From contig NC_049986.1 of assembly GCF_000003815.2 (NCBI RefSeq), positions 1,263,477-1,327,476 on the forward strand: a stretch of DNA of 64,000 nucleotides, in the 5' to 3' direction. A model generated the notes under the pieces. It did no database searches. It was not told the origin of the DNA and worked only from the letters and a program-made list of their open reading frames with translations. This document shows, in pieces, positions 14,281 to 59,726 of this stretch. Origin of the DNA: Branchiostoma floridae. Taxonomy: Eukaryota > Chordata > Leptocardii > Amphioxiformes > Branchiostomatidae. A program made the position numbers and the translations under genes. Within the stretch, counting starts at the first letter, position 1. Each line of letters starts with the position of its first letter.

Positions 14281-17200
14281 CGGCCGGCCAGGCACCCTAC
14301 GGGGATGATACCCTAGCTTGCATCCGTAGGGGCTGTGAAGGGGGTAACCCTGTTTCAGCCCTAGGAGCAAGTCGGCTTCGGCCCCTGGTCTTTTTATTTG
14401 GCTTGGGTTGACTGCCCAAGTCATCTTATCTCATATTGTCACATTACAATTACGAAAAGCCTCGAAATGGACTGATCTAATGGCGATGACCCTTGCAAGA
14501 ATTGACAAAGATTATGGAATTGTGATCCAATTTATGCTACCCTTTTTTGTGCTGTTCCTTATTTGTGGTGATATTCACCCGAACCCAGGTCCTCAGCAAA
14601 ATGAGCTCATTGTTCGATTCACAAACATTAGAGGTTTACGCACTAATCTGACATACCTTGAACACAATCTAGTTGCATCGCATCCTCATATATTTTGTAT
14701 ATCAGAAACCTTCTTAAGCAGTAAGGTCTATGATGAGCTATTGGTGATACCTGGTTACTCTGTCTTCAGAAGGGATAGACCCAATGACTCTGGTTGGGGT
14801 GGGTTAGTAGTGTACTGCAGTGAAGCTCTTACTGTTGCAAGAATGCCCGACTTTGAGAATCACTACTATGAATATATATGCCTTCAAGTGTCCTTGCCTG
14901 GCCGTAAGATTTTCATGTTTTGTGTCTACCGGCCCCCATCAGATGATGATTCTTTATTTGATGTGTTATCTGAGAATATTGACAATATCCAAGAGCTCCA
15001 CCCAAAATCAGAGATTATTGTCCTTGGGGACTTAAACTCTCACCACGAAGACTGGTTAGGCAGCGACAAGACTGACATGCATGGAGAATGTGCATATGAA
15101 TTTGCTATTCTGAACAATCTCCAACAACTCGTCGATGAACCTACTAGGCTTGGTACTGACGGCAAGTGCTCCAAACTGGACCTTTTTCTAACTACCTCTC
15201 CTGATAACCATGCTGTTACCGTCAGCGCGCCTCTTGGGTCCTCTGACCACTGCGTGGTAACTTCTGTGGCAAACTACAAACTTCCAACCCAGAGCAAACC
15301 TGGGAGACGTAAAACATGGTACTATGACAAAGCTGATTGGGACGGAATGCGCTCCTATCTGGCTGACACAAACTGGTCTACTCTCCTAAAAGGCAAAAGT
15401 GCTGATGCAGCATGGACCTGTGTGAGAGATGTGATTAGTGATACTATGGACATGTTCATTCCTTCCAAAATGACCAAACATTGCTTTTCTGACAAACCAT
15501 GGTTTAATGAAGATTGCAAACTAGCTGTTAAACAGAAACAAAATGCATTCAAAAGATGGCAAAACAACCGAACAATGGACTTCTGGACTTTGTATATTAA
15601 GTCAAAGGCAGAGTGCCAACGAGTTGTGCGCCGTGCTCGTGCGCAGTTTTCACTGCACTTACAACAGAACCTCAAGCATGCAGACAATAAGCAGTGGTGG
15701 AAGCTTGTCAAATCAGTAACTGACAGCAAGAAAACGTCTTCTGTCCCTCCATTAGTCAGTGAAGGCAAAACTTACAGTAAGGCGAAAGATAAAGCTGAGT
15801 TGCTGAATAAGACCTTCGCTGCAAATGCTCATCTTAACGACGCAGGGAAAAGCCCCCCGGTCCTGCCACCCAAAACAGATGAAAGTCATGAAACCATCTC
15901 ATCTCTGAAATTCTGGCCCAAAACAGTTCTTCGGAAACTACGTAACTTAGACACCACCAAGGCCAATGGGCCAGATGGAATATCGGCAAAGGTACTCAAG
16001 AAGTGCGGCCCGGAACTTGCCCCTGTTCTAGCCAAACTATTCCAAATCTCTCTTGACTCACAGACAGTTCCCTCCGACTGGAAAGCTGCCCAGGTGATAG
16101 CTGTTCCTAAAAAGGGAAACAAGAAAGATCCTTCCAACTATAGGCCCATATCCTTATTGCCGATAATATCCAAAGTTATGGAAAGTATTATGTGCGACCA
16201 CATCCGTAAACATCTCGATAGACACCAGCTTCTTTGTGACAGCCAGTATGGATTTCGAGAGAAGAGATCAACAATTGACATGCTTTCATATATTACTCAG
16301 TGGTGGAACAATGCTCTTGACACTCAGAAAGAAATTCGAGTCATTGCCCTGGATATTAAGAAAGCGTTTGATCGTGTTTGGCACCGCGGTCTACTGTCCA
16401 AGCTGATCTCCTTTGGTATCCACGGGGATCTGTACGGTTGGATCTCATCCTTCCTAGCCGACAGATGCCAATCAGTAGTACTGGATGGTTTTACCTCCTC
16501 ATCAATTCCAATAAGTGCCGGAGTCCCCCAGGGGAGTGTCTTGGGACCCCTTCTGTTCCTGATCTTTATAGATGATCTTGAACAACACTTAGTTAATGAC
16601 CTCCACCTATTCGCAGATGATTCAACACTACATGTGGTGATTAAAAGCCCTGGCCTAAGAAACACTTGTGCTTTGAGCTTACAACAGGATCTTGACTCGA
16701 TAGAAAAGTGGGCCTCCGACTGGTGCATAACATTCAATGCAGGTAAAACTGAGGAGATGATCATAAGTAGGAAACGGGACCTGACTCATCCTCCGCTGTT
16801 TTTCATGAATGAAGAACTGAAGCCTACTCAGAGCATAACTTTGCTTGGTGTCACTATCACCAATACTCTAACCTGGACCCCATTCATCAAAAGCCTTGCC
16901 ACAAAAACCGCAAGAAGGCTGTTTATCCTAGGACGCACCAGGGACCTTCTCCCTCTCCAAGCCCGGATAACAGTATACAAGGCATATATCCGCCCTCTAA
17001 TGGAATATGCGTCCCCCATATGGAGTGGCGCTGACACAACAGCTTTAAAGATGCTAGATAGACTTCAGAGCAAAGCTCTTCGTCAACTTCAGATTAGGGT
17101 CGACCCACAGAATGCCGGCATCTTCCCCTTGGACCACAGGAGGAAAGTAGCCAGTCTCTGCACCTTCTACCGGCACATCTTCCTACAACCTTCCCAGGAA

Positions 17201-17673
17201 CTTTCAGGAATCATGCCGACACGCGCAACCGGGACACGAGTAACCAGATCATCCACAAGAGCTCACCCTTACCTTGTTAAAGTACCGAGATCAAATACCC
17301 AACTTCACCTATCATCTTATGTACCACGAACTAGTAGACTCTGGAATTCACTTCCAGCATCAGTGTTTCCAGCAAGACCCGACATGAACATTTTCAAGAC
17401 AGCTGTTAACAAATTTCTTTTGAACTATAATTCTCAGAGCTAGCTTCATTGCATATGTATATAATTGTATATTTGAGTTGATGTAGACGCTTTTGGGATG
17501 TACATATGAGCTAATGTAAACGTTTTTGGATCACAATAATGTGCTTAATGTTCGAGGCTACTGTAATGTAAATGTGACGTATGACTGCTTTACTTTGTAT
17601 CGTATGGGCCGTATATCATCAGCATGATGTAAATATTCAGGTCCTTTTGTACTGATTAAAAAAAAAAAAAAAA
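14281..17673 (+). mobile_element. Full-length APE-type LINE (CR1/L2-like)
   Basis: The complete element has a GC-rich leader starting cggccggccaggcacc, one ORF (14480-17443), a ~200-bp 3' UTR and an A-rich tail preceded by ATTAAA (17655-17660). ggttt occurs directly before it (14276-14280) and directly after (17674-17678). The flank after the tail (taggcaccaggggga) continues the locus B sequence at about 51390, confirming both ends. Target-site duplication, poly(A) tail and intact ORF suggest recent insertion. Clade placement rests on APE plus RT architecture and is tentative. Confidence 0.93.
14480..17443 (+). CDS. LINE ORF2-like protein: 2A-like leader, APE endonuclease, reverse transcriptase
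   Basis: 987 residues from the first in-frame ATG (the frame is open upstream to 14408 without another ATG). A hydrophobic segment (FMLPFFVLFLIC, about 18-29) runs into DIHPNPGP (31-38), resembling the D-x-E-x-NPGP 2A motif with His for Glu. APE-type endonuclease follows: Asn in FTNIRGL (49), Glu in CISETFL (76), VYRPP, GDLNSHHEDW, and SDH (D256, H257). Reverse transcriptase has YRPISLLPIISKVMES, ALDIKKAFDRVW (D625), SAGVPQGSVLGPLLF, FADD (D713, D714) and LLGVTI. All catalytic residues are present with no stop or frameshift. Role: nick the target and reverse-transcribe its own RNA. No separate ORF1 is visible. Confidence 0.93.
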   Translation: MAMTLARIDKDYGIVIQFMLPFFVLFLICGDIHPNPGPQQNELIVRFTNIRGLRTNLTYLEHNLVASHPHIFCISETFLSSKVYDELLVIPGYSVFRRDRPNDSGWGGLVVYCSEALTVARMPDFENHYYEYICLQVSLPGRKIFMFCVYRPPSDDDSLFDVLSENIDNIQELHPKSEIIVLGDLNSHHEDWLGSDKTDMHGECAYEFAILNNLQQLVDEPTRLGTDGKCSKLDLFLTTSPDNHAVTVSAPLGSSDHCVVTSVANYKLPTQSKPGRRKTWYYDKADWDGMRSYLADTNWSTLLKGKSADAAWTCVRDVISDTMDMFIPSKMTKHCFSDKPWFNEDCKLAVKQKQNAFKRWQNNRTMDFWTLYIKSKAECQRVVRRARAQFSLHLQQNLKHADNKQWWKLVKSVTDSKKTSSVPPLVSEGKTYSKAKDKAELLNKTFAANAHLNDAGKSPPVLPPKTDESHETISSLKFWPKTVLRKLRNLDTTKANGPDGISAKVLKKCGPELAPVLAKLFQISLDSQTVPSDWKAAQVIAVPKKGNKKDPSNYRPISLLPIISKVMESIMCDHIRKHLDRHQLLCDSQYGFREKRSTIDMLSYITQWWNNALDTQKEIRVIALDIKKAFDRVWHRGLLSKLISFGIHGDLYGWISSFLADRCQSVVLDGFTSSSIPISAGVPQGSVLGPLLFLIFIDDLEQHLVNDLHLFADDSTLHVVIKSPGLRNTCALSLQQDLDSIEKWASDWCITFNAGKTEEMIISRKRDLTHPPLFFMNEELKPTQSITLLGVTITNTLTWTPFIKSLATKTARRLFILGRTRDLLPLQARITVYKAYIRPLMEYASPIWSGADTTALKMLDRLQSKALRQLQIRVDPQNAGIFPLDHRRKVASLCTFYRHIFLQPSQELSGIMPTRATGTRVTRSSTRAHPYLVKVPRSNTQLHLSSYVPRTSRLWNSLPASVFPARPDMNIFKTAVNKFLLNYNSQS

Positions 17674-18573: not shown

Positions 18574-18738
18574 ATGCAACATGACTTAAAAGTACGGTTG
18601 GATTGGTATGTTTCTCGATCTCAGTGTCGCACATGTATGTAACGTTACCCTGGTTGGCAGAAAAGCATCGTAGCATACAGACGTCGACGTTTTCCCTGAA
18701 GGGGCTGCAGTGAGCCGAAACAAGGCAACTCTTGCCTG

Positions 18739-19052
18739 CACACCTGCCGCGGGACCTTCCCTTCCTAATCTCATCAAATGGGCTGACCAATGGGCGAGCG
18801 CACACCTGCCGCGGGACCTTCCCTTCCTAATCTCATCAAATGGGCTGACCAATGGGCGAGCGCACACCTGCCGCGGGACCTTCCCTTCCTAATCTCATCA
18901 AATGGGCTGACCAATGGGCGAGCGCACACCTGCCGCGGGACCTTCCCTTCCTAATAATCTCATCAAATGGGCTGACCAATGGGCGAGCGCACACTTGCCG
19001 CGGGACCTTCCCTTCATAATCTCATCCAACGGGCTAACCAATGGGCGAGCGC
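18739..19052 (+). repeat. 62-bp CCAAT minisatellite, 5 units
   Basis: Units start at 18739, 18801, 18863, 18925 and 18990 (unit four has a 3-bp insertion). Each contains cctgccgcgggaccttccc and gctgaccaatgggcgagcg, so each carries a CCAAT box and several CpGs. It is followed by caggtcaggtcgggaaatag. Related arrays at 46164, 52975 and 58704. Confidence 0.95.
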
Positions 19053-20250
19053 ACATGTCTTGGCCCAGGGCAGGTCAGGTCGGGAAATAGCCTGATGACT
19101 CATCCACGCCGTATGAACGCATTAGGTCTATATATAGCTACATATACATGGTGTTTACTGGAATTGTTTATTGGTTCCTTTCAAAATATTTAACATGTTG
19201 TGTGTTTTCTCAAACATAATGTGTTCGTATAACTATAAGTTACGAAGCTTGCATAAAATGTAACTAATTTTCGGCTATTAGATTTACCTTTCTCTGTATG
19301 CATGTTCACTATGCCAAAAATGGACTTTAAATCTTTTACACAGTTCTTTATAATTAGCTTCTAGTCATGTGTTTAAAATCAACGAAGTGATGTTCTTTAT
19401 CAAACATTACAATGTATTTTGTATGTAAATACTGTACATGTACTAGTTGTTTTATGATTACAGTAGTGTGTTCCAGTACAGTAGTATGTTTTGGATTCAT
19501 AAATGATAATCAGTTCGACTCATTTCTCTATGATGGCCTATAGTCTAATGTGCTTGTCAAAATGTAGCTCTGAATGACAGCTGGTACAGGTACTAGTTTT
19601 ACATCAAGCTGAAGAAGGTCGCTAAGAAAGAAATGTTGTAATAAGCCTTGTGTACAAGAATATGAAGCTCTTTTTGTTTCACTTTGTTTCATAGAGTGAT
19701 TGCAAGTATCAGGTTTCTCAAGTTGAAAGAAAATATGTCTCAGTGGTTATATGTATGTAGTCGTCTGTTTTTTTCCCGCGCTCAATTAGTTGGATTATGT
19801 GTACATATCCGGATCGACCCTCGGACACACTGACTTGTCAGGTGAATCCAAACACAAAGACTAACAGATTCCATTCACGTGCACATCCAATCCTCTTAGC
19901 CAACCAGTCTGTGTGAATTCCCCAAAGTTCTGTCAGGGGCAAAGAAGCAGACATTCGTATTGACTAAAGGTTTGGAAACATACTGATGGGCATTGAGGAA
20001 TGGTTAGAATTTTTTACGTTACATGTATCAAAAGCGACCCTTATTAATCACTACCGGTACTGCAGCTTGGCGCATACACTTATTGTTAGGTTGGCTGCAA
20101 TAATTACACCAACAGCTAGGGGTCCCCACTGTGCGTTAACATGTAGCCATCCGGTAAAACTAGTCTCTACCAGACTCCGGATCGCTGGAAAAATCGTAGA
20201 AATGGAACAAATCAGAGGAGTAAGCCGGCCAGAGGAATATAACCGGCCAG
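19053..20250. other. Intergenic; flank shared with 53200-53500
   Basis: The first ~400 bp match 53200-53560 (tatgaacgcattag, tctatatatagctac). The rest is AT-rich. At 20165 tctaccagactccggatcgc begins a motif that returns inverted after the gap (20878). Confidence 0.5.
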
Positions 20251-20724: not shown

Positions 20725-20725
20725 T

Positions 20726-21065
20726 CATGAAGGTGTATTCGGTGTGACCGCTTCTATTGCGACATATACCATGCGACGTATGACATGCGTGACAGTATCT
20801 GAGTGTGTTTAGCCAATTTCAACTATTTTCCTCTTCTCTAAGCGGAAATAACCCAAATAGAAATACGTACTCCACAGCGATCCGGAGTCTGGTAGAGACT
20901 ACGGTAAAACCCCGACTACAACTATATCTATTTGCCTCATATCTGCTTCGAGAAGAAGAAAATAGTAGAAATTGGCAAAACACACACAGATACTGTCACG
21001 CATGTCATACGTCGCATGGTATACGTCGCCATAGAAGCGGACACACCGAATACACCTTCTTGAAA
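20726..21065. mobile_element. Foldback element with ~108-bp arms
   Basis: The left arm 20726-20832 (tcatgaaggtgtattcggtg, then atgcgacgtatgacatgcgt) is mirrored at 20957-21064 (acgcatgtcatacgtcgcat, then caccgaatacaccttcttga). It is probably a MITE, though an assembly inversion beside the gap is possible. Confidence 0.6.
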
Positions 21066-21400
21066 ATACACGTGAACAAAATACATAAGTGTACCTTCTC
21101 ATCATGTTCTGCGAAACGTTTTTCTCAGACCAATCTGAGCACAGTTATGAAAACAGGAAGTTTCCAGACTGGTTGCCAGATTACATTACGTGAGAGTATC
21201 CAGTGATATCTGCTCTTTCCTCAAACCAATCTTTTAAGTCTAAAACATGGAACTTTCAGATTAGTTCTCAAATAAAGGAACGTGACAGTATTCGCTGAGG
21301 TCTACTTTGTAATCCTCTCTACAGAGTTTAAAAATGAGTAAGAGACGTCGACTGGCTAATCTTTGTCCTGTAAATGGTGTATACAAAAATAAAAATATAA
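21040..21400 (+). repeat. Dispersed repeat shared with 29920-30260
   Basis: Blocks aaaatacacgtgaac, cagaccaatctgag, cagattacattacgtgag, tctctacagagtttaaaaa and ctgtaaatggtgtata occur in the same order at 29920-30260, with scattered substitutions. Confidence 0.8.
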
Positions 21401-21947
21401 AAATATCTAACGGTTGTATTTCTACATGTGCGTTAATGGAGAGCGTTTTATGATCCTAACATTACCAGACTGGGAATAATAAAAATGTATTTAATGTGGC
21501 TCTGCCTTAACTAGTTGTATGCTCTAAACCAGCCCCTGACGTGTCTAAGGCGTCTACAAAATTGTGCGTGGGTAGACAAGCAGACATATATATGCAATTT
21601 CATTTACTACTTTTCTGTCTGAGTAGATGTTTCAAATCAGGAGGTCTCCAAATTGGTTCTGTGATTACAATACGTGATGGTACTCAGCCTGTAGTCAACA
21701 GTGCAAGATATATAATCAGGCATGAGATACCGTCTTGAGCACGGCAGACATACGTACAGCATGTATGATACACACACGACGCTAATATATTTGCTGAAGA
21801 CAGTTTCAAGATCGCACAGTACTTACTTAACCTGCTTTTCAAGGCGATGCGGAGCCCTACATATATATATCTGAGCATTTGAAGCAAACTCGTGGCGTGT
21901 ACGTATCTCTTTCTGACCAGGTGGAACTGAGGACAACTCGTACAGAC

Positions 21948-23874
21948 ATGAAAGAAAGTGGACTGCTGTTGCTCCTTACTTTGATACGTCTGTGGTCAGG
22001 TTGTGCTTGCCGGCTACGTGTAGCATACACTATTTGTCATACTTCGGGACATCGATAGTTCACTGTTACAATACAAACCTTACGGCGATTCCTGACGACA
22101 TCCCGGCCAATGCTGACAGCTTTACCTTGTCCAGTTCATGTAGCATCGGGAACGTATCATATCTTCCACCACTACCGCGGCTGCGTGCCCTGGAACTATA
22201 TAGGAACTGTATAGATTATTTTTGCTGGATGTCTTTGCGTGCGCTGCCAAATTTAGAATCTCTTTGTCTCCCGGGAAACCGACTTCGGTACGTGAAGCTG
22301 GACACCGTCATTGAGCATCTCCCGAAGCTGAAAGAAGTTGACCTACGTTTCAACAAATTGGCGTCGTTCTCTGAGTACGAGCTCGGGCGGCCACAAGTCA
22401 TCGATACACTTATCAACGATAACCCATTTCACTGTGACTATGCCCTCAACTGGCTGATTGTCAAGATGGCGTGTTTACGGGACTGTAAGGGGAAAGAACG
22501 ACAGAACTCCTGTTGTTCTCGCTGTTCAGCTTGTTTTCTCGTCAGAAGCCTAAAAATGGGCGCTCATGTCTGCTCCAGTCCGCGTGAACTGAATAAGCTG
22601 CGTTTGTCCAACGCGCTCGTGACTGCCAAACTGACGGGCTGTGAGACACACCGCCCCACCACAGAACCTACAGCGATACCGGTGACTTCAGTCGTGTTTC
22701 CTTCAGATGGGACTCAGACCAAGCGTCAGCTGCAGCGCAACGAAACTTCTCTGTCCACGATGCAGACAGGCTCTGCACAGACCGCGACTTCTTCTCTGAA
22801 CGCCACGGACACGACGCGTCAAAACAACTACCAGTTTTGTACAACCCCGTCTCTGCAACTGGTACTTTCTTGGCTATAGCTATCGTACTCTGCCTCGTAC
22901 TCAGACGGTACTACGTTAAAATCAACAACTCCCCGGGAGCTGTCAATCACGGACACCAGCCTGTCAATCAAACTACACCACCGATAGTAAACCACGAATA
23001 TCCTACAGGAGCTTTGGATGGCGGGAATTCGGCAGTCATGGACGGAAGAGAAAGTACAGCATCAACAACAATCCACACTTACGAAAATCCTACAGGAGAT
23101 TTGTATGGCGGGAATTCGGCAGTCATGGACGGAAGAGAAAGTACAGCATCAACAACAATCCACACTTACGAAAATCCTACAGGAGATTTGGACAGCGGGA
23201 ATTCGGCAGCCATGGAAGAAAGAGAAAGTACAGCACCAACAACAAACCGCACTTACGAAAATCCTACAGGAGATTTGGATGGCGGGAATTCGGCAGTCAT
23301 GGACGGAAGAGAAAGTACAGCATCAACAACAATCCACACTTACGAAAATCCTACAGGAGATTTGGACAGCGGGAATTCAGCAGCCATGGACGGAAGAGAA
23401 AGTACAGCACCAACAACAAACCACACTTACGAAAATCCTACAGGAGATTTGTATGGCGGGAATTCGGCAGTCATGGACGGAAGAGAAAGTACAGCATCAA
23501 CAACAATCCACACTTACGAAAATCCTACAGGAGATTTGTATGGCGGGAATTCGGCAGTCATGGACGGAAGAGAAAGTACAGCATCAACAACAATCCACAC
23601 TTACGAAAATCCTACAGGAGATTTGGACAGCGGGAATTCGGCAGCCATGGAAGAAAGAGAAAGTACAGCACCAACAACAAACCACACTTACGAAAATCCT
23701 ACAGGAGATTTTGATGGCGGGAATTCGGCAGTCATGGACGGAAGAGAAAGTACAGCATCAACAACAATCTACACTTACGAAAATCCTACAGGAGATTTGG
23801 ACAGCGGGAATTCAGCAGCCATGGATGGAAGAGAAAGTACAGCACCAACAACAAGCATATACTCTATTGAATGA
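21948..23874 (+). CDS. LRR transmembrane receptor with repetitive tyrosine tail (two frame breaks)
   Basis: ATG at 21948 gives a signal peptide (MKESGLLLLLTLIRLWSGCA). The ectodomain continues in another frame (from about 21992): an LRR N-cap (CYNTNLTAIPDDIPAN), three or four LRRs (PRLRALELYRNCIDY, PNLESLCLPGNRLRYV, PKLKEVDLRFNKLASF), an LRR C-cap (NPFHCDYALNWLIVKMACL plus a Cys cluster) and a Ser/Thr stalk. At the TTTT run 22835-22838 the sense moves to a third frame with a membrane segment (GTFLAIAIVLCLVL), basic RRYYVK and a cytoplasmic tail of ten 29-residue repeats ending IYSIE. Both breaks would be repaired by one extra base, so they could be assembly errors, polymorphism or real lesions. 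It is a probable surface receptor signalling through tyrosine phosphorylation; ligand unknown. An acceptor-like tctctttctgaccag ends at 21920. Confidence 0.75.
22990..23859 (+). repeat. 87-bp coding tandem repeat, 10 units, in LRR receptor tail
   Basis: Unit consensus is TYENPTGDLDGGNSAVMDG followed by RESTASTTIH, 29 residues with no indels. Nine units carry YENP; the first has HEYP. Two types alternate: A (GGNSAV, TASTTI) and B (SGNSAA, TAPTTN), in the order A A B A B A A B A B. Each unit has an EcoRI site (gaattc) or one-base variant. Confidence 0.95.
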
Positions 23875-25200
23875 GATAGGGATGGGGGACAGGGGACAGT
23901 CACGAATGAAACACTAGAAAGGCCGACATTTGCTTAAGAGCAAATACAGCATATTTCAGCCATACCCCTTCCCACGCAACATTGGACTGTTCCAAATCAC
24001 CCCTGCGCAAAAATGGAACATCCTCTTAACAGTACATTATCCCCCAAAGTGGACTGGTATTGTGAATTGATTCCAGGTAAAGACAGAGCTTGCTTCTATT
24101 TTTCAGAAAATGACAATAATCACACCTTCCATTCAGAAAATTTTCATCATAACTGAAAATTGTTGAATGACTTCATCATGTAATGTCATTAACAATTTTC
24201 AGTACGATAACTAGGTGTAAGTTTAAAAAAGTATAAGCTCCTTGTGATGTGGGTACATTTATTATTGCAGTGAACTTTTTTTATTCAAGTAGGGCATACG
24301 ATTTAATAATTATCAAGCAGGTGCAGGTACTGTAGGAGCGTTTGTTTTCTTCAAGCTGTAAAACTGTTAAACTGTTTTACTTTGTATGCAATCAGCCATC
24401 GAGCCTATTCTTATTTTAGTTTAACAACTCAGTCCTGCCAGACCCGGAAGATACGATTGAACCTTGTTCGAGGATTTATTTTCGTCTGTCTGGTCAGTCT
24501 GTTCATACCCTGGCGCTGAGAGTGTTTTATTGGGCTGAAACTCTGGCAGTTTAAAGTTACTTACAATTTAAATGTTCAAAGTTTATGTCAAACAACAACA
24601 GCACTAGGAACACATACATTTGCTCTGGAGAAAATACAGCAATTTTCGCAAGTTCCAGTCCAGTGATAGAAATGTGGCCACTATAGACAGGTGGTCACTA
24701 TAGAGAAAAATGCTGATCTATTGACTAGGAGCCATACGTTACACATGATCAGTACACTGATCATTAATCATATAAACATTGCACAGGTAAGCCAATTGTT
24801 TAGATGTACAATTAAGTTCAAATAATTCTGAAGAGAAATATTGATGAGAAAATAATCATTCTCGCCACTGTCTAACTTATAATTACGTATCAAAACTAAA
24901 CGCAGATTTTCTAACTAACGCACCTTTCGCCGACTTCATCAAAGGACCGCCGGCTATCAATCAAACACGGCTGTTGATTAGACTTAGAGTTTCAAACAGT
25001 CATGTGCTGTGTGCCAGTTGACAGCGAACTTCATGCTACGTGATGTTTTACATTGCTTGGACCTTCTTTCCTACAGCGGTGCTTCTACAAAATATTTAGA
25101 CTGTAACACTGAGTCCCACATGTTTTATAGAATAGAATTTGACGCAGAACAGCGTTTTTTGCTGGGTATTTTTCTTGAAACATGTCCGTGGGAATATCAG
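23875..25200. other. Intergenic, no recognised gene
   Basis: 3' flank of the LRR gene, AT-rich, with no clear repeat or coding signature. It may include the LRR 3' UTR. Confidence 0.4.
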
Positions 25201-29745: not shown

Positions 29746-30269
29746 ACCTGGTGAGGCAGTATATCGAGCATGCGATACAAACAAAGCATATTAACATCAG
29801 ACTAGCATTCCCCCTTTTTGATGCATTTTTGTGTATATTTGTGTCCATTTATGTTTAAACAAATTGACAAGAACACGTTTAATCACTACATAAGAAGAGA
29901 GGCATACGTCGGCAAAGAAGAAGACACACCGAACGCACTGCTGAAAATACACGTGAACGAAATACAAGTGTTTATCTCATCATTGTTCTCCGATACGTTT
30001 TTCACAGACCAATCTGAGTATAGTTTAAAAAAAGGGCCATTCCAGACGGGTTGACAGATTACATTACGTGAGGGTATCCAGTGGTGTCTGCTCTTTCCTA
30101 AAACCAATCTTCCAAGTGTAAAATATGGAATTTTTAGATTGATTCTCAGATAAAAGAACACGACAGTATCCGTTGCTACTTCTCTACAGAGTTTAAAAAC
30201 GCTCGAGTAAGAGAGGTCGACTGACGAATCGTTGCCCTGTAAATGGTGTATATAAGAAATAAAAAGAGA

Positions 30270-33919: not shown

Positions 33920-34473
33920 CTCGTAGCCTGGTTGAGGCTAACTTGAATTGTTTTTCATCCAAGACACAAGCCCTTGTCTATTTGAGACGATGACATCTTG
34001 TTGCTTGGTTGGTAGCATATGTCAACACTTTGACCTTTGTACATATGGCATCCGTGGAAGTTAGTCTCCGTGTTTCCAGCAGGTCAGGGCCTACACAGAC
34101 CAGCCACTCGGCTCACGGTTGTGCTATTAGGGATAATACGTACGGACCCAAAATGAATATTTACTACGCAAAGGTTGTGGTCAGGTATAACACCCCTACA
34201 ATGGGCCAGCATTTCTGAAATCGTGGAATGTGCAAATTTCAATGTGCGAATGCTTACAAGAATAGAGGTTTAGGTACTAAGTTTAATATTAGCCTAACTA
34301 GTTTGACTACTATATATCTGTGCGACGTGATTCAACCTACGCTATATGTGTATATGCTATATAAGTGAGAAAAACACTTTGCATCAGGTTTACAATTACA
34401 ATTACAGATACAGGACTGTGGATACAATGTGTCATGAGTAACCATGTCTAGTTACAAAACAGAGATAGCGGAT
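33920..34473. repeat. Inverted copy of ~55270-55700
   Basis: catatggcatccgtggaagt, gggcctacacagaccagcc, gcaaaggttgtggtcagg and aagaatagaggttt have reverse-complement counterparts at 55450-55640. Part of the upstream block of the minus ZNF, inverted relative to that of the 56.4-kb locus. Confidence 0.75.
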
Positions 34474-34712
34474 AATCAAAGTATTACACTACAAACTACA
34501 CAACCTTACATGCTACAGAGGGACTATCTAACACGTTAACATACCTGACTCCATAATCAAAGTATTACACTACAAACTACACAACCTTACATGCTACAGA
34601 GGGACTATCTAACACGTTCACATACCTGACTCCATAATCAAAGTATTACACTACAAACTACACAACCTTACATGCTACAGAGGGACTATCTAACACGTTC
34701 ACATACCTGACA
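34474..34712 (-). repeat. 81-bp tandem repeat, 3 units, each with a splice-donor-like site
   Basis: aatcaaagtattacactaca begins units at 34474, 34555 and 34636. On the minus strand each unit repeats gtcag|gtatgtgaacgtg, with exon-side ends at 34545, 34626 and 34707. The inverted counterpart is at 55010-55252. Confidence 0.9.
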
Positions 34713-34824
34713 CCAAGGTGTCGAACTGACTGAGCAGACAAGTGCACCTTCCAAGCTTAACTAACATAACAATAGAAGATCTACTTAGCCAATGAGAATT
34801 ATGCTCTCATTAGCTTCAACCAAT
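34705..34824 (-). promoter_or_regulatory. Candidate promoter and untranslated exon 1 of the 32.4-kb ZNF gene
   Basis: On the minus strand, cctgattgg (CCAAT on + at 34820-34824) precedes gttaagcttgg and ctgctcagtcagttcgacac, then gtcag|gtatgtg (exon end 34707). The same layout lies upstream of the 56.4-kb locus, there with a clear TATAAG. Splicing to 33343 would give a ~1.36-kb intron. Confidence 0.45.
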
Positions 34825-44814: not shown

Positions 44815-45649
44815 ACGGCGACCCCGGCTGTATCTCATGTGGAAAAAGAGAAGGGAAGTAACGGACGTGGAGAGGATCTTCATGGTACACACAAGTGTGG
44901 CGAGTGCGACAAGGAGTTTCGTCGACTAGATGACTTTAAGAGACACATGCGTACTCACACGGGCGAGAAACCATTTAGATGTGAGGAGTGCAGCAGAAGG
45001 TTTAGACAGCTGGGTCATCTGAAGACACATATGCGGACTCATACCGGTGAGAAAACGTTATAAGTGCGATGAATGCGGCAAACAGTTTGGCGAGCTCGGT
45101 AGTCTCAAGAGGCATATAAGAACTCACACCGGTCAGAAACCATACAGATGTGAGAAGTGCAGCAAGCAGTTTAGTGAGCTGAGTAATATGAAGAAGCATA
45201 TACAGACTCACACCGGTGAGAAATCTTACAAATGTGAGGAGTGCGGCAAGCAGTTCAGTCAGTTTGGTCATCTGAAGAGTCATATACGGACTCATACCGG
45301 TGAGAAGTCCTATAGGTGCGATGAATGCAGCAAAAAGTTTAGTGTTCTTGGTGGTCTGAAGAGTCACATGCGGACTCATACAGGTGAGAAGCCGTATAGT
45401 TGTGATGAATGCAGCAAACAGTTCAGTGGGCTGTGTGATCTGAAGAGACATATCCGGACTCACACTGGCGAGAAAACTTACAGATGTGAGGAGTGCAGCA
45501 AGCAGTTCAGTCAACTGTGTAATCTGAAGATGCACATGCGAACCCACACCGGTCAGAAGTCATACAGATGTGAGAAGTGCAGTATGGAGTTTAGTGCGCT
45601 GGGTTCTATGAAGAAGCACATGCGGACTCACACCAGTAAGGGGCCCTAA
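44815..45649 (+). pseudogene. C2H2 zinc-finger gene, 9 fingers, start lost and frameshifted
   Basis: The family exon is recognisable: acceptor tttccattcctgcag, leader sequence identical to the family but starting ACG instead of ATG (44815-44817), then two fingers. An extra A in the run at 45052-45055 shifts the frame; without it the chain would read [14 protein letters not shown]. Seven further fingers follow in the second frame to TAA at 45647-45649, ending HMRTHTSKGP. All nine have full C2H2 sets, so decay is recent, or one lesion is an assembly error. An in-frame ATG at 44731 lies in the presumed intron. A short product from a downstream ATG is possible but unlikely. Confidence 0.85.
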
Positions 45650-46000: not shown

Positions 46001-46163
46001 ATGCAGCATGCCTCAAAAGTATCGTTGGTTGGTATGTTTCTTGATCTCAGTGTTGCGTAATTGCACATGTATATGTACCAGGGTTGACAGATATAACATC
46101 GCAGCATACAGACGTTTTCCTTGAAGGGGCTGCGGTGTGCCAAAACAAGGCAACTCTTGCCTG

Positions 46164-46473
46164 CACACCTGCCGCGGGACCTTCCCTTCCTAATCTCATC
46201 AAATGGGCTGACCAATGGGCGAGCGCACACCTGCCGCGGGACCTTCCCTTCCTTATCTCATCAAATCGGCTGACCAATGGGCGAGCGCACACCTGCCGCG
46301 AGACCTTCCCTTCCTAATCTCATCAAATGGACTGACCAATGGGCGAGCGCACACCTGCCGCGGGACCTTCCCTTCCTAATCTCATCAGATGGGCTGACCA
46401 ATGGACGAGCGCACACCTGCCGCGGGACCTTCCCTTCCTAATCTCATCAAATCGGCTGACCAATGGGCGAGCG
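46164..46473 (+). repeat. 62-bp CCAAT minisatellite, 5 units
   Basis: Units start at 46164, 46226, 46288, 46350 and 46412. Same consensus as 18739-19052, with private changes (cctgccgcgagacc in unit 3, atcggctgacc in units 2 and 5). Followed by gggcacaggtcaggtcaggt. Confidence 0.95.
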
Positions 46474-46479
46474 CACACG

Positions 46480-52819: not shown

Positions 52820-52974
52820 AAGCAACATGTCTCAAAATTATGGTTGGATTGGAATGTTTCTCGGCCTCAGTATCGCACATGTATGTACGCTCGTTGACAG
52901 AAAAAAAATACCGTACCATACAGACGTTTTCCTTAAAAGGCTGCGGTGTGCGGAAACAAGGCAACTCTTGCCTG

Positions 52975-53160
52975 CACACCTGCCGCGGGACCTTCCCTTT
53001 CTAATCTCATCAAATGGGCTGACCAATGGGCGAGCGCACACCTGCCGCGGGACCTTCCCTTCCTAATCTCATCAAATGGGCTGACCAATGGGCGAGCGCA
53101 CACCTGCCGCGGGACCTTCCCTTCCTAATCTCATCAAATGGGCTGACCAATGGGCGAGCG
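52975..53160 (+). repeat. 62-bp CCAAT minisatellite, 3 units
   Basis: Units start at 52975, 53037 and 53099; shortest of the four arrays. Followed at 53176-53200 by four GGTCA pentamers and GGTCG. Confidence 0.95.
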
Positions 53161-53499
53161 CCACGTCTGTGCATAGGTCAGGTCAGGTCAGGTCAGGTCG
53201 GGAAATAGCCCGATGACTCAACTGTGCCTTATGAACGCATTAGATCTATATATAGCTACATGTACATGTTGTGGACTAGAATAGTTTATTAGTTTCTTTT
53301 AAAGTATTTAACAAATTACTTGTATTGTCAAACGTAATGTGTTTCTGTAAGATACAAAGCTTGCATAAAATGTAACTAGTATTTAACTCTTCAAGTTACC
53401 TTCCTCTGTTGGCATGTTCAGTATGCCAAAAGTGAAATCTTATTCTTTTACACAGTTCTTTATAATTCACTTTCAGTCATTCAGAGAAGTAAATGTTCT

Positions 53500-54896: not shown

Positions 54897-55016
54897 ATTG
54901 GTTAAGGTTAATGAGATCAGCCCTCTCATTGTCTATAAGTAGATATCCTATTGTTATGTTCGTTAAGCTTGGGAGATGCATTTGTCTGCTCAGTCACTTC
55001 GAGACCGTGGAGTCAG
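54897..55016 (+). promoter_or_regulatory. Candidate promoter and untranslated exon 1 of the 56.4-kb ZNF locus
   Basis: ATTGG (54897-54901) and TATAAG (54934-54939) are followed about 80 bp later by ccgtggagtcag|gtatgtgaac (exon end 55016). With the acceptor ttccattcctgcag (AG at 56413-56414) the intron is 1.4 kb. Inverted counterpart at 34705-34824. Confidence 0.5.
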
Positions 55017-55252
55017 GTATGTGAACGTGTTAGATAGTCCCTCTGTAGCATGTAAGGTTGTGTAGTTTGTAGTGTAATACTTTGATTATGGAGTCAGGTA
55101 TGTGAACGTGTTAGATAGTCCCTCTGTAGCATGTAAGGTTGTGTAATTTGTAGTGTAATACTTTGATTATGGAGTCAGGTATGTGAACGTGTTAGAAAGT
55201 CCCTCTGTAGCATGTAAGGTTGTGTAGTTTTTAGTGTAATACTTTGATTATC
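55010..55252 (+). repeat. 81-bp tandem repeat, 3 units, each with a splice-donor-like site
   Basis: ggagtcag|gtatgtgaacg recurs with exon-side ends at 55016, 55097 and 55178. Reverse complement of the array at 34474-34712, with the same copy number. Confidence 0.9.
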
Positions 55253-58542: not shown

Positions 58543-58703
58543 ATGCAACATGTCTCAAAAGTATGGTTGGATTGATATATTTATCAATCTCTGTGTCGCA
58601 CATGTAACGTTATGTACCCTCGTTGACAGAAAAAAATATCGCAGCAAACAGACGTTTTCCTTGAAGGAGCTGTGGTGTGCGGAAACAAGGCAACTCTTGC
58701 CTG

Positions 58704-58951
58704 CACACCTGCCGCGGGACCTTCCCTTCCTAATCTCATCAAATGGGCTGATCAATGGGCGAGCGCACACCTGCCGCGGGACCTTCCCTTCCTAATCTCA
58801 CCAAATGGGCTGACCAATGGGCGAGCGCACACCTGCCGCGGGACCTTCCTTTCCTCATCTCATCAAATGGGCTGACCAATGGACGAGCGCACACCTGCCG
58901 TGGGACCTCCCCTTCCTAATCTCATCAAATGGGCTGACCAATGGGCGAGCG
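58704..58951 (+). repeat. 62-bp CCAAT minisatellite, 4 units
   Basis: Units start at 58704, 58766, 58828 and 58890. Unit 1 has gctgatcaatggg (CCAAT lost); the others keep gctgaccaatgg. Followed by gggcacaggtcaggtcggga. Confidence 0.95.
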
Positions 58952-59726
58952 CCACGCCTGGGCACAGGTCAGGTCGGGAAATAGCCGGATGACCCGACGG
59001 CCAACTACGCTGTATGAACGCATCAGAGATCGGTGACCGCGTGCACGGGAGCCGGGCTCCCTTTTGACGCTTCCTCATTTTCTTTCCCATTACTTCAGTA
59101 GCTCAAACTTTCGTCAGGCCTGGCGGAGAAAAAAAAACATCATTATGTTATTGATAAAACAATAGTACTGTCGTTGATTTTTTTTCATAGCACATCAGTT
59201 TCTAGTTAAGTTTGTCTTTGACATCGACATATTACTAGCCGGTTGAATGAAATATTGCCCTATACATGTCTTAGGAACATGTTGTATCTTATATTCATGA
59301 AGTTAAAGGAATAGAAGGAGAAGTAAATATTCCTATATTTTAGAGAAATATAATTAATCATATGTATATTGTCGTGACTCATTTGGTGCAATATATGAGA
59401 AGTGCAATTTTTCAAAATAATCCGAAAAAAATTTAGTGAAGCTTTTTTTCTTACGCTTTACACGAAGACTCTTACAAAGATTTAGCTTTACATATTTTAC
59501 AGTTCACTTAACTCAATTACAGTAAGCCATAGTCGATAGACAGGTGTCATTAGGTGTTCTACACATTCCATTTAAGGTGTCCCTTTTGACATAAAAACAA
59601 ATAAAAAAATCATTTTCATTGCCATAAAGCCATATTTACACTTTCTTTACTTTGTATACATAAGACTGAAGACAATGAAGACTGAGGTATGTGAGAAAAA
59701 CACCTCGACCTAACCATTTGAAGTAC

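Follow-up and report, generated by a model that had tools for sequence, protein, structure and literature searches.

Does a stretch of amphioxus DNA in which an LRR ectodomain is followed by a membrane segment and a tandem array of tyrosine motifs encode a surface receptor that docks signalling adaptors, and does the number of those motifs matter? The stretch analysed, hereafter the window, comprises 64,000 nucleotides of the Branchiostoma floridae genome (C8:1263477-1327476), and the features of the receptor locus lie on its + strand. Ten tandem units of 29 residues (87 bp each), nine of them with TYENP, occupy 22996..23865 in frame 1 behind the membrane segment, and an earlier note made from the letters alone had their count and position right. 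TRF places the array at 22994-23854 with a period of 87, 9.9 copies, 92% matches, 0% indels and a score of 1484, which is not a chance result. The array opens with a degenerate H-E-Y-P-T-G ahead of the first T-Y-E-N-P, the Tyr codons of the nine motifs are at 23080, 23167, 23254, 23341, 23428, 23515, 23602, 23689 and 23776, an extra second tyrosine (LYGGN) is present in three units, and the tail ends in ...SIYSIE, with the final codons and the stop at 23866..23874. Unit types are ordered A A B A B, run two times, and since the array matches itself best at an offset of five units (98.4%, 7 mismatches in 426, as against 92.0-94.7% for the seven other offsets tried), a five-unit doubling was probably the last event leading to the present ten.

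The other two + strand frames of the array are likewise open along long stretches, the third frame receiving two stops from unit changes; the majority unit has no stop in any of the three frames, which held for just 0.11% of simple shuffles. When codon usage learned from five zinc-finger stretches of the window was scanned across the array, frame 1 was not favoured and frame 0 scored higher. Among interior units 2-9, 12 columns vary, spread 4:4:4 over the codon positions, and 2/12 of the changes are silent where 3.1 are expected, so that purifying selection is not visible inside the window array by either measure; the unchanged YENPTGD core is a weak signal, with P=0.028 for units 2-9 and P=0.28 once unit 1 is added. 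Selection that cannot be seen within the array is the expectation for young repeats or for a dead copy. The open frame that holds the array (22645-23871, frame 1) also gave a weak Pfam match to DUF6229 in two stretches (E=0.0011, 19.2 bits, below the cut-off of 25).

Upstream, the signal peptide MKESGLLLLLTLIRLWSGCAC starts with the ATG at 21948 (21948..22009, frame 0 mod 3), and the ectodomain, with its LRRNT, a short stack of LRRs and the LRRCT, follows at 22001..22642 in frame 2, together with a Ser/Thr-rich stalk (22643..22834, frame 2; 22/64 residues Ser/Thr). The membrane segment PVSATGTFLAIAIVLCLVL at 22846..22902 (Kyte-Doolittle mean of 2.28 over 19 residues) is in frame 1, the frame of the array, and leads through a basic RRYYVK into the juxtamembrane part (22903..22995). 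In the LRR frame, Pfam gave above-cut-off matches to LRR_8 (E=1.8e-7) and LRR_4 (E=3.9e-7), and the six families matching up to E=10 were all LRR. LRRC4B was the best solved relative by sequence (4.3e-13), LGR5 and the amphioxus VLR-like Bf66946 (1.8e-10) being found as well, and the LRRNT and LRRCT of LRRC4B could be aligned to the window ectodomain by sequence comparison. Judged from sequence, the locus appears to carry an LRR ectodomain with capping motifs and the signature of the LRR fold. The earlier note had also proposed that no TIR domain is present, and the 409-aa frame showed none at E values up to 10; between 23917 and 26358 the list of open frames has no entry of at least 100 aa. 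We accordingly rejected a Toll-like receptor.

As assembled, the signal peptide, the LRR part and the membrane-plus-repeat part of the window copy are in three different frames. Compared with the intact paralogue L009, there is a 4-nt deletion at about 22010, where the signal peptide meets the LRRNT, and a 2-nt gain at about 22812..22820, ahead of the membrane segment, the remaining gaps adding up to multiples of three. Within the window no single open frame connects the LRR part (21917-22876, frame 2) with the repeats, and thus the LRR-repeat junction is demonstrated not by the window itself but by its paralogues. Frame 2 could be connected to frame 1 by eleven unscored GT-AG pairs of at least 35 nt, whose donors fall within 22640-22849 and whose acceptors reach 22857 at most; rescue by a short intron was nevertheless rejected, as by eye no pyrimidine tract is seen at the acceptors and the paralogues have their open frames without splicing. 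Given that the breaks are not single-base homopolymer slips, we lean towards a real null copy rather than an assembly error, and a copy interrupted twice probably cannot make a full receptor. The window LRRCT has moreover lost a cysteine (HCDY, vs CDC in 8 aligned paralogues), and breaks, truncations or gap cuts affect 6/18 other close match rows, both of which speak against the rather unlikely alternative that the two breaks are assembly errors in an intact gene, an alternative to which the draft state of the sequence (two N runs in the window), a frame switch in one of the six zinc-finger arrays of the window and a tail frame open along the entire array lend some weight.

The whole genome (513,431,437 bases, 431 contigs) was searched. 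The array DNA gave 13 matches including the window itself, on contigs C8, C18, C13, C244, C7, C3 and C9, and the ectodomain search scored 150/1018 candidates, its match counts being lower bounds. With the window counted, at least 19 match rows reached 64% identity or more, and at least 11 of these are complete open frames, 532-676 codons between stops, that carry a MKVSGLLLLLTLTRLWS-type leader and run from signal peptide through LRR ectodomain, stalk and membrane segment to a tyrosine tail; the intact L009/L019 (587 codons) is on C8, about 720 kb from the window. The family is therefore one of type I LRR receptors, one open frame each. The LRR surface receptor that the earlier note had read from the window thus stands for the 11 complete paralogues, whose signal peptide, ectodomain and membrane segment share a frame, and falls short for the doubly interrupted window copy, where they do not; the frame breaks, the gene family and a second tail motif class (IYSxE) had been overlooked. 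Seven rows are broken, truncated or gap-cut (the window, L029, L031, L032, L033 and two C7 pieces), and L036, which has an open tail and its N-terminal half inside an assembly gap, was for that reason excluded from the tree, the ectodomain tests and the pair tests, as were L012a and L015b (cut ORFs) from the ectodomain alignment. In the tree the window and the 11 complete members form one clade (support 100/98), separate from the five more distant relatives included. The set of distant relatives comprises 12 loci with a frame (L034, L035, L037 and L039-L047; L038 gave none under the filter), and clusters of more distant LRR relatives were seen at C3:5.86-6.07 Mb, C12:11.40-11.43 Mb, C18:4.19-4.83 Mb and C15:16.44-16.46 Mb. 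No second copy of the ectodomain or tail was found within the window at E 0.01. Neither the viral nor the prokaryote sequence collections yielded a confirmed relative, a comparison with Rfam at gathering scores produced 0 matches, and the family is absent from the literature found, the coverage of which was partial.

In the 11 complete members the tail spans 200-340 residues and contains 7-15 tyrosines, and topology predicts that it is cytosolic. All 12 tail-bearing close members examined (the 11 complete ones and L036) have at least one Y-x-N-P: 8/12 have a single one (L020, L021, L022, L023, L025, L027, L028 and L030), and 4/12 have three to five (L019 with three, L026 and L036 with four, L024 with five), the nine of the window copy being the highest count seen. 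By eye, the motif is kept at the homologous juxtamembrane place in 10/12 and is missing from L019 (HEYPTG) and L022 (deleted), both of which have a YENP further on. The H at -2, the Y, the N at +2 and the P at +3 are found in 12/12 with silent codon changes, position +1 being E, D, G, S or A, and because the motif windows were picked by means of Y.NP, only the H and the presence in all members are independent of that choice. Among the 118 tail tyrosines of the 12 members (113 with full context), 32 are YxxP or YxN, 62 are hydrophobic-Y-[SACTN], mostly IYS-type, and 5 are both; at +3 there are 27 P and 47 E. Distal IYS-type units, 3-8 per tail, occur in 11/12 (L020-L028, L030 and L036), and by that count L019 has none, just the terminal IYSIE. 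The 12 more distant relatives have YxN in none and YxxP in three (L035, L041 and L046), although the missing motif says little when 5/12 have tails of 15 residues or fewer.

What might such tails do? Grb2-type SH2 domains prefer N at +2 and Crk-type SH2 domains P at +3, and Y-x-N-P has both. The suitability of YENP for the two adaptors, which the earlier note had put forward, is thus borne out at the level of the motif in 12/12 members, and it finds a parallel in the last 50 residues of human APP, which when phosphorylated at Tyr-682 (YENPTY) bind SH2 constructs of Grb2 and Crk as well as ShcA/B/C, Grb7, Nck, Abl, Lyn, Src and PLC-gamma (PMC2723102). In DCBLD2, which sets an avidity precedent among receptors, CRKL binding driven by Fyn and Abl is lost stepwise as YxxP tyrosines are removed, from the wild type to Y7F (PMC6029619), and the recognition of YxxP by the Crk SH2 domain is older than animals, phospho-YDVP peptides having bound a choanoflagellate Crk SH2 (PMC5043372). 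As for amphioxus LRR proteins, the tail of BbLcLRR has three tyrosines that Lck phosphorylates, one of them in HDYDDP (PMC8211107), a sequence that to our eye resembles the H-x-Y-[DE]-[DN]-P of the window family, and a Grb2 bait pulled out another LRR protein (PMC10199209). Taken together, the APP, DCBLD2, Crk/YxxP and amphioxus LRR precedents point to adaptor docking by Y-x-N-P tails as the best reading, and jointly with the view of the locus as an interrupted gene in a type I LRR receptor family that evolves by birth and death we consider it reasonably, though by no means securely, probable. In the proposed mechanism, the LRR part would bind a ligand and the receptors would cluster, Src- or Abl-type kinases would phosphorylate the tail tyrosines, each phospho-Y-x-N-P would dock a Grb2- or Crk-type SH2 adaptor, and the distal IYSxE tyrosines may be sites for other SH2 proteins or kinase substrates. 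Unequal exchange of the minisatellite type, together with gene conversion, could add or remove Y-x-N-P units and would thereby change docking valency.

The BbLcLRR precedent could also be read the other way, with inhibitory tails whose tyrosines recruit SHIP- or SHP-type phosphatases. In Jurkat cells BbLcLRR bound SHIP1 and, less, SHP1/2, all three tail tyrosines were required for inhibition, and its HDYDDP, counted as ITIM-like, has P at +3 as in YxNP (PMC8211107). We find this account improbable for the window family, since the ITIM core [ILVS]xYxx[ILV] fits just 1/118 tail tyrosines in the 12 members, and the APP tail phosphorylated at YENP, in the constructs reported, bound neither SHIP-2 nor p85 (PMC2723102). 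With Yxx[LI] at 4/118, an ITIM/ITAM receptor was rejected as a class. APP raises a further alternative, namely that YENP stays unphosphorylated and acts as an NPxY-type PTB or endocytic motif like YENPTY. YENPT is common to APP and the window units, and the Pfam APP C-terminus was matched at E=5 only (8.2 bits vs a cut-off of 27); the nine YENP units, however, read NPTG, so the tyrosine of NPxY is absent, the first motif of 7/12 relatives is YxNPE, and we rejected this reading, to which we attach hardly any credence.

YENP is spaced by 29 residues in L019, L024, L036 and the window, and L026 has a 25-residue unit, DHIYENPTGALDGHLSVNQNAPPIA, in four copies, each with YENP, which looks like a separate amplification of the motif. 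VNHGHQP heptads are expanded instead in L028 (20 heptad-like copies), L030 (5) and a C7 relative, and in the C7 and C3 receptors (L015, L016, L028 and L030) such heptads adjoin the membrane, with few tyrosines. These tyrosine-poor expansions indicate that tail repeats can grow without Y-x-N-P. The tail may also have moved between copies. The window copy is identical to L009 at 100/100 positions of 22900-22999 and differs at 1/96 of 23000-23099, homology stopping near 23913, and across 21900-22899 there are 3-24 mismatches per 100-nt block. By identity its ectodomain is closest to L020 (83%), while for its membrane/juxtamembrane part L009 is a 98% match, a pattern that fits an exchange of the tail module between copies.

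For the 55 pairs among the 11 complete members, median dN/dS was 0.45 in the ectodomain vs 0.84 in the tail, where repeat misalignment inflates the value, and it was higher in the tail for 51/55 pairs, in pairwise alignments with possibly misaligned repeat units. The medians were unchanged whether the ectodomain end was set by a fixed length or by the last LRRCT cysteine, and with the window included the ectodomain median was 0.465 (36 pairs). The median gapped fraction was 0.9% in the ectodomain vs 32% in the tail with the free end (1.7% in the ectodomain with the fixed end), and leader plus ectodomain measured 228-233 residues in 11/11 complete members. Since misaligned repeats raise tail dN/dS, the divergence of the tails is a lead and not proof. 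We raise as a tentative idea, somewhat short of probable, that the recognition half is constant and that the signalling half diversifies via coding minisatellites and gene conversion, in which case docking valency and the mix of Y-x-N-P and IYSxE would vary between individuals or paralogues.

Copy number could, on the other hand, be neutral, the array being an unstable coding minisatellite in which one Y-x-N-P is enough and extra copies have little effect. The unit differences without a purifying signal, the five-unit doubling, the single Y-x-N-P in 8/12 members and the heptads that expand without the motif are all consistent with this, and amphioxus minisatellites are unstable, a globin gene having 6 vs 3 units between haplotypes (PMC3087553). 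That the motif was multiplied in two unit designs, of 29 and 25 residues, and is missing from 0/12 tail-bearing members argues against it, and we regard neutrality as a serious contender, though not the outcome we expect. In view of the single motif in 8/12 members, the lack of a silent excess and the growth of tyrosine-poor heptads, the earlier note's proposal that recruitment scales with copy number is unproven. Intact paralogues keep at least one Y-x-N-P and vary in its number, so that the make-up of the tail may set signal strength.

Receptors with multiple YxxP are already known; among them, an LRR family whose tails are built from modular tandem tyrosine units would be new. DCBLD1 and DCBLD2 (8 and 7 intracellular YxxP) are likewise transmembrane proteins with several YxxP for an SH2 adaptor and a graded response (PMC6029619), but they have a discoidin/CUB/LCCL ectodomain instead of LRR, and the window family adds near-identical tandem units and an N at +2 (YxNP). 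Membership of the DCBLD family by descent was rejected, as no CUB, LCCL or discoidin domain was found and the Pfam matches of the LRR frame (E<=10) are all LRR. Choanoflagellate transmembrane proteins also have several cytosolic YxxP, ten in one of them, but 3/5 have SH2-like domains and the text consulted mentions no LRR (PMC5043372). The substrate domain of p130Cas/BCAR1 (15 YxxP) shares the serial YxxP docking for Crk (PMC5043372), in a focal-adhesion protein with SH3 and FAT-like domains rather than a receptor. BbLcLRR of Branchiostoma belcheri is, like the window family, an amphioxus LRR transmembrane receptor with tail tyrosines, but it has a WSC domain, is ITIM-like and inhibitory, and has no tandem tail repeats mentioned in the sections available (PMC8211107). 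APP shares the YENP core and SH2 docking once phosphorylated (PMC2723102); it is an unrelated protein with one YENPTY, which is also an NPxY motif. Bf66946, also from B. floridae, resembles the window ectodomain in its short LRRNT/LRR (E=1.8e-10) but was chosen among LRR proteins without other domains (PMC4731796). A VLR or VLR-like protein was rejected, given the tyrosine tail and the uniform leader-plus-ectodomain length (228-233 aa in 11/11).

Other elements were noted in the window. A MITE-like inverted repeat (20725-21063; 141-nt arms, 89% complementary, 57 nt apart) lies upstream of the receptor gene, and 21018-21395, which partly overlaps it, matches 29901-30265 at 80%. A LINE-type element at 14348-17437 has an open frame of 1030 residues in which endonuclease and reverse transcriptase domains are found, and the C2H2 zinc-finger array at 44896-45631, one of six, shifts frame between the second and third matched finger. 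A 62-bp tandem unit recurs in four separate arrays, each with three to five copies (18738-19055, 46163-46478, 52974-53161 and 58703-58960), and an 81-bp unit forms three-copy arrays at 34472-34715 and 55008-55251, with consensus sequences that by eye are apparently mutual reverse complements.

To our knowledge, the valency of phosphotyrosine scaffolds has been studied mostly with engineered mutants. Here a single genome holds paralogues whose similar ectodomains are joined to one, three, four or five motifs, or to nine in a broken copy, and so offers a natural series in which dose could be compared with output. A constant ectodomain with an evolving tail, if true, would be the reverse of the usual pattern of immune receptors, and if it is the tails rather than the ectodomains that evolve, these innate receptors would be tuned from inside.
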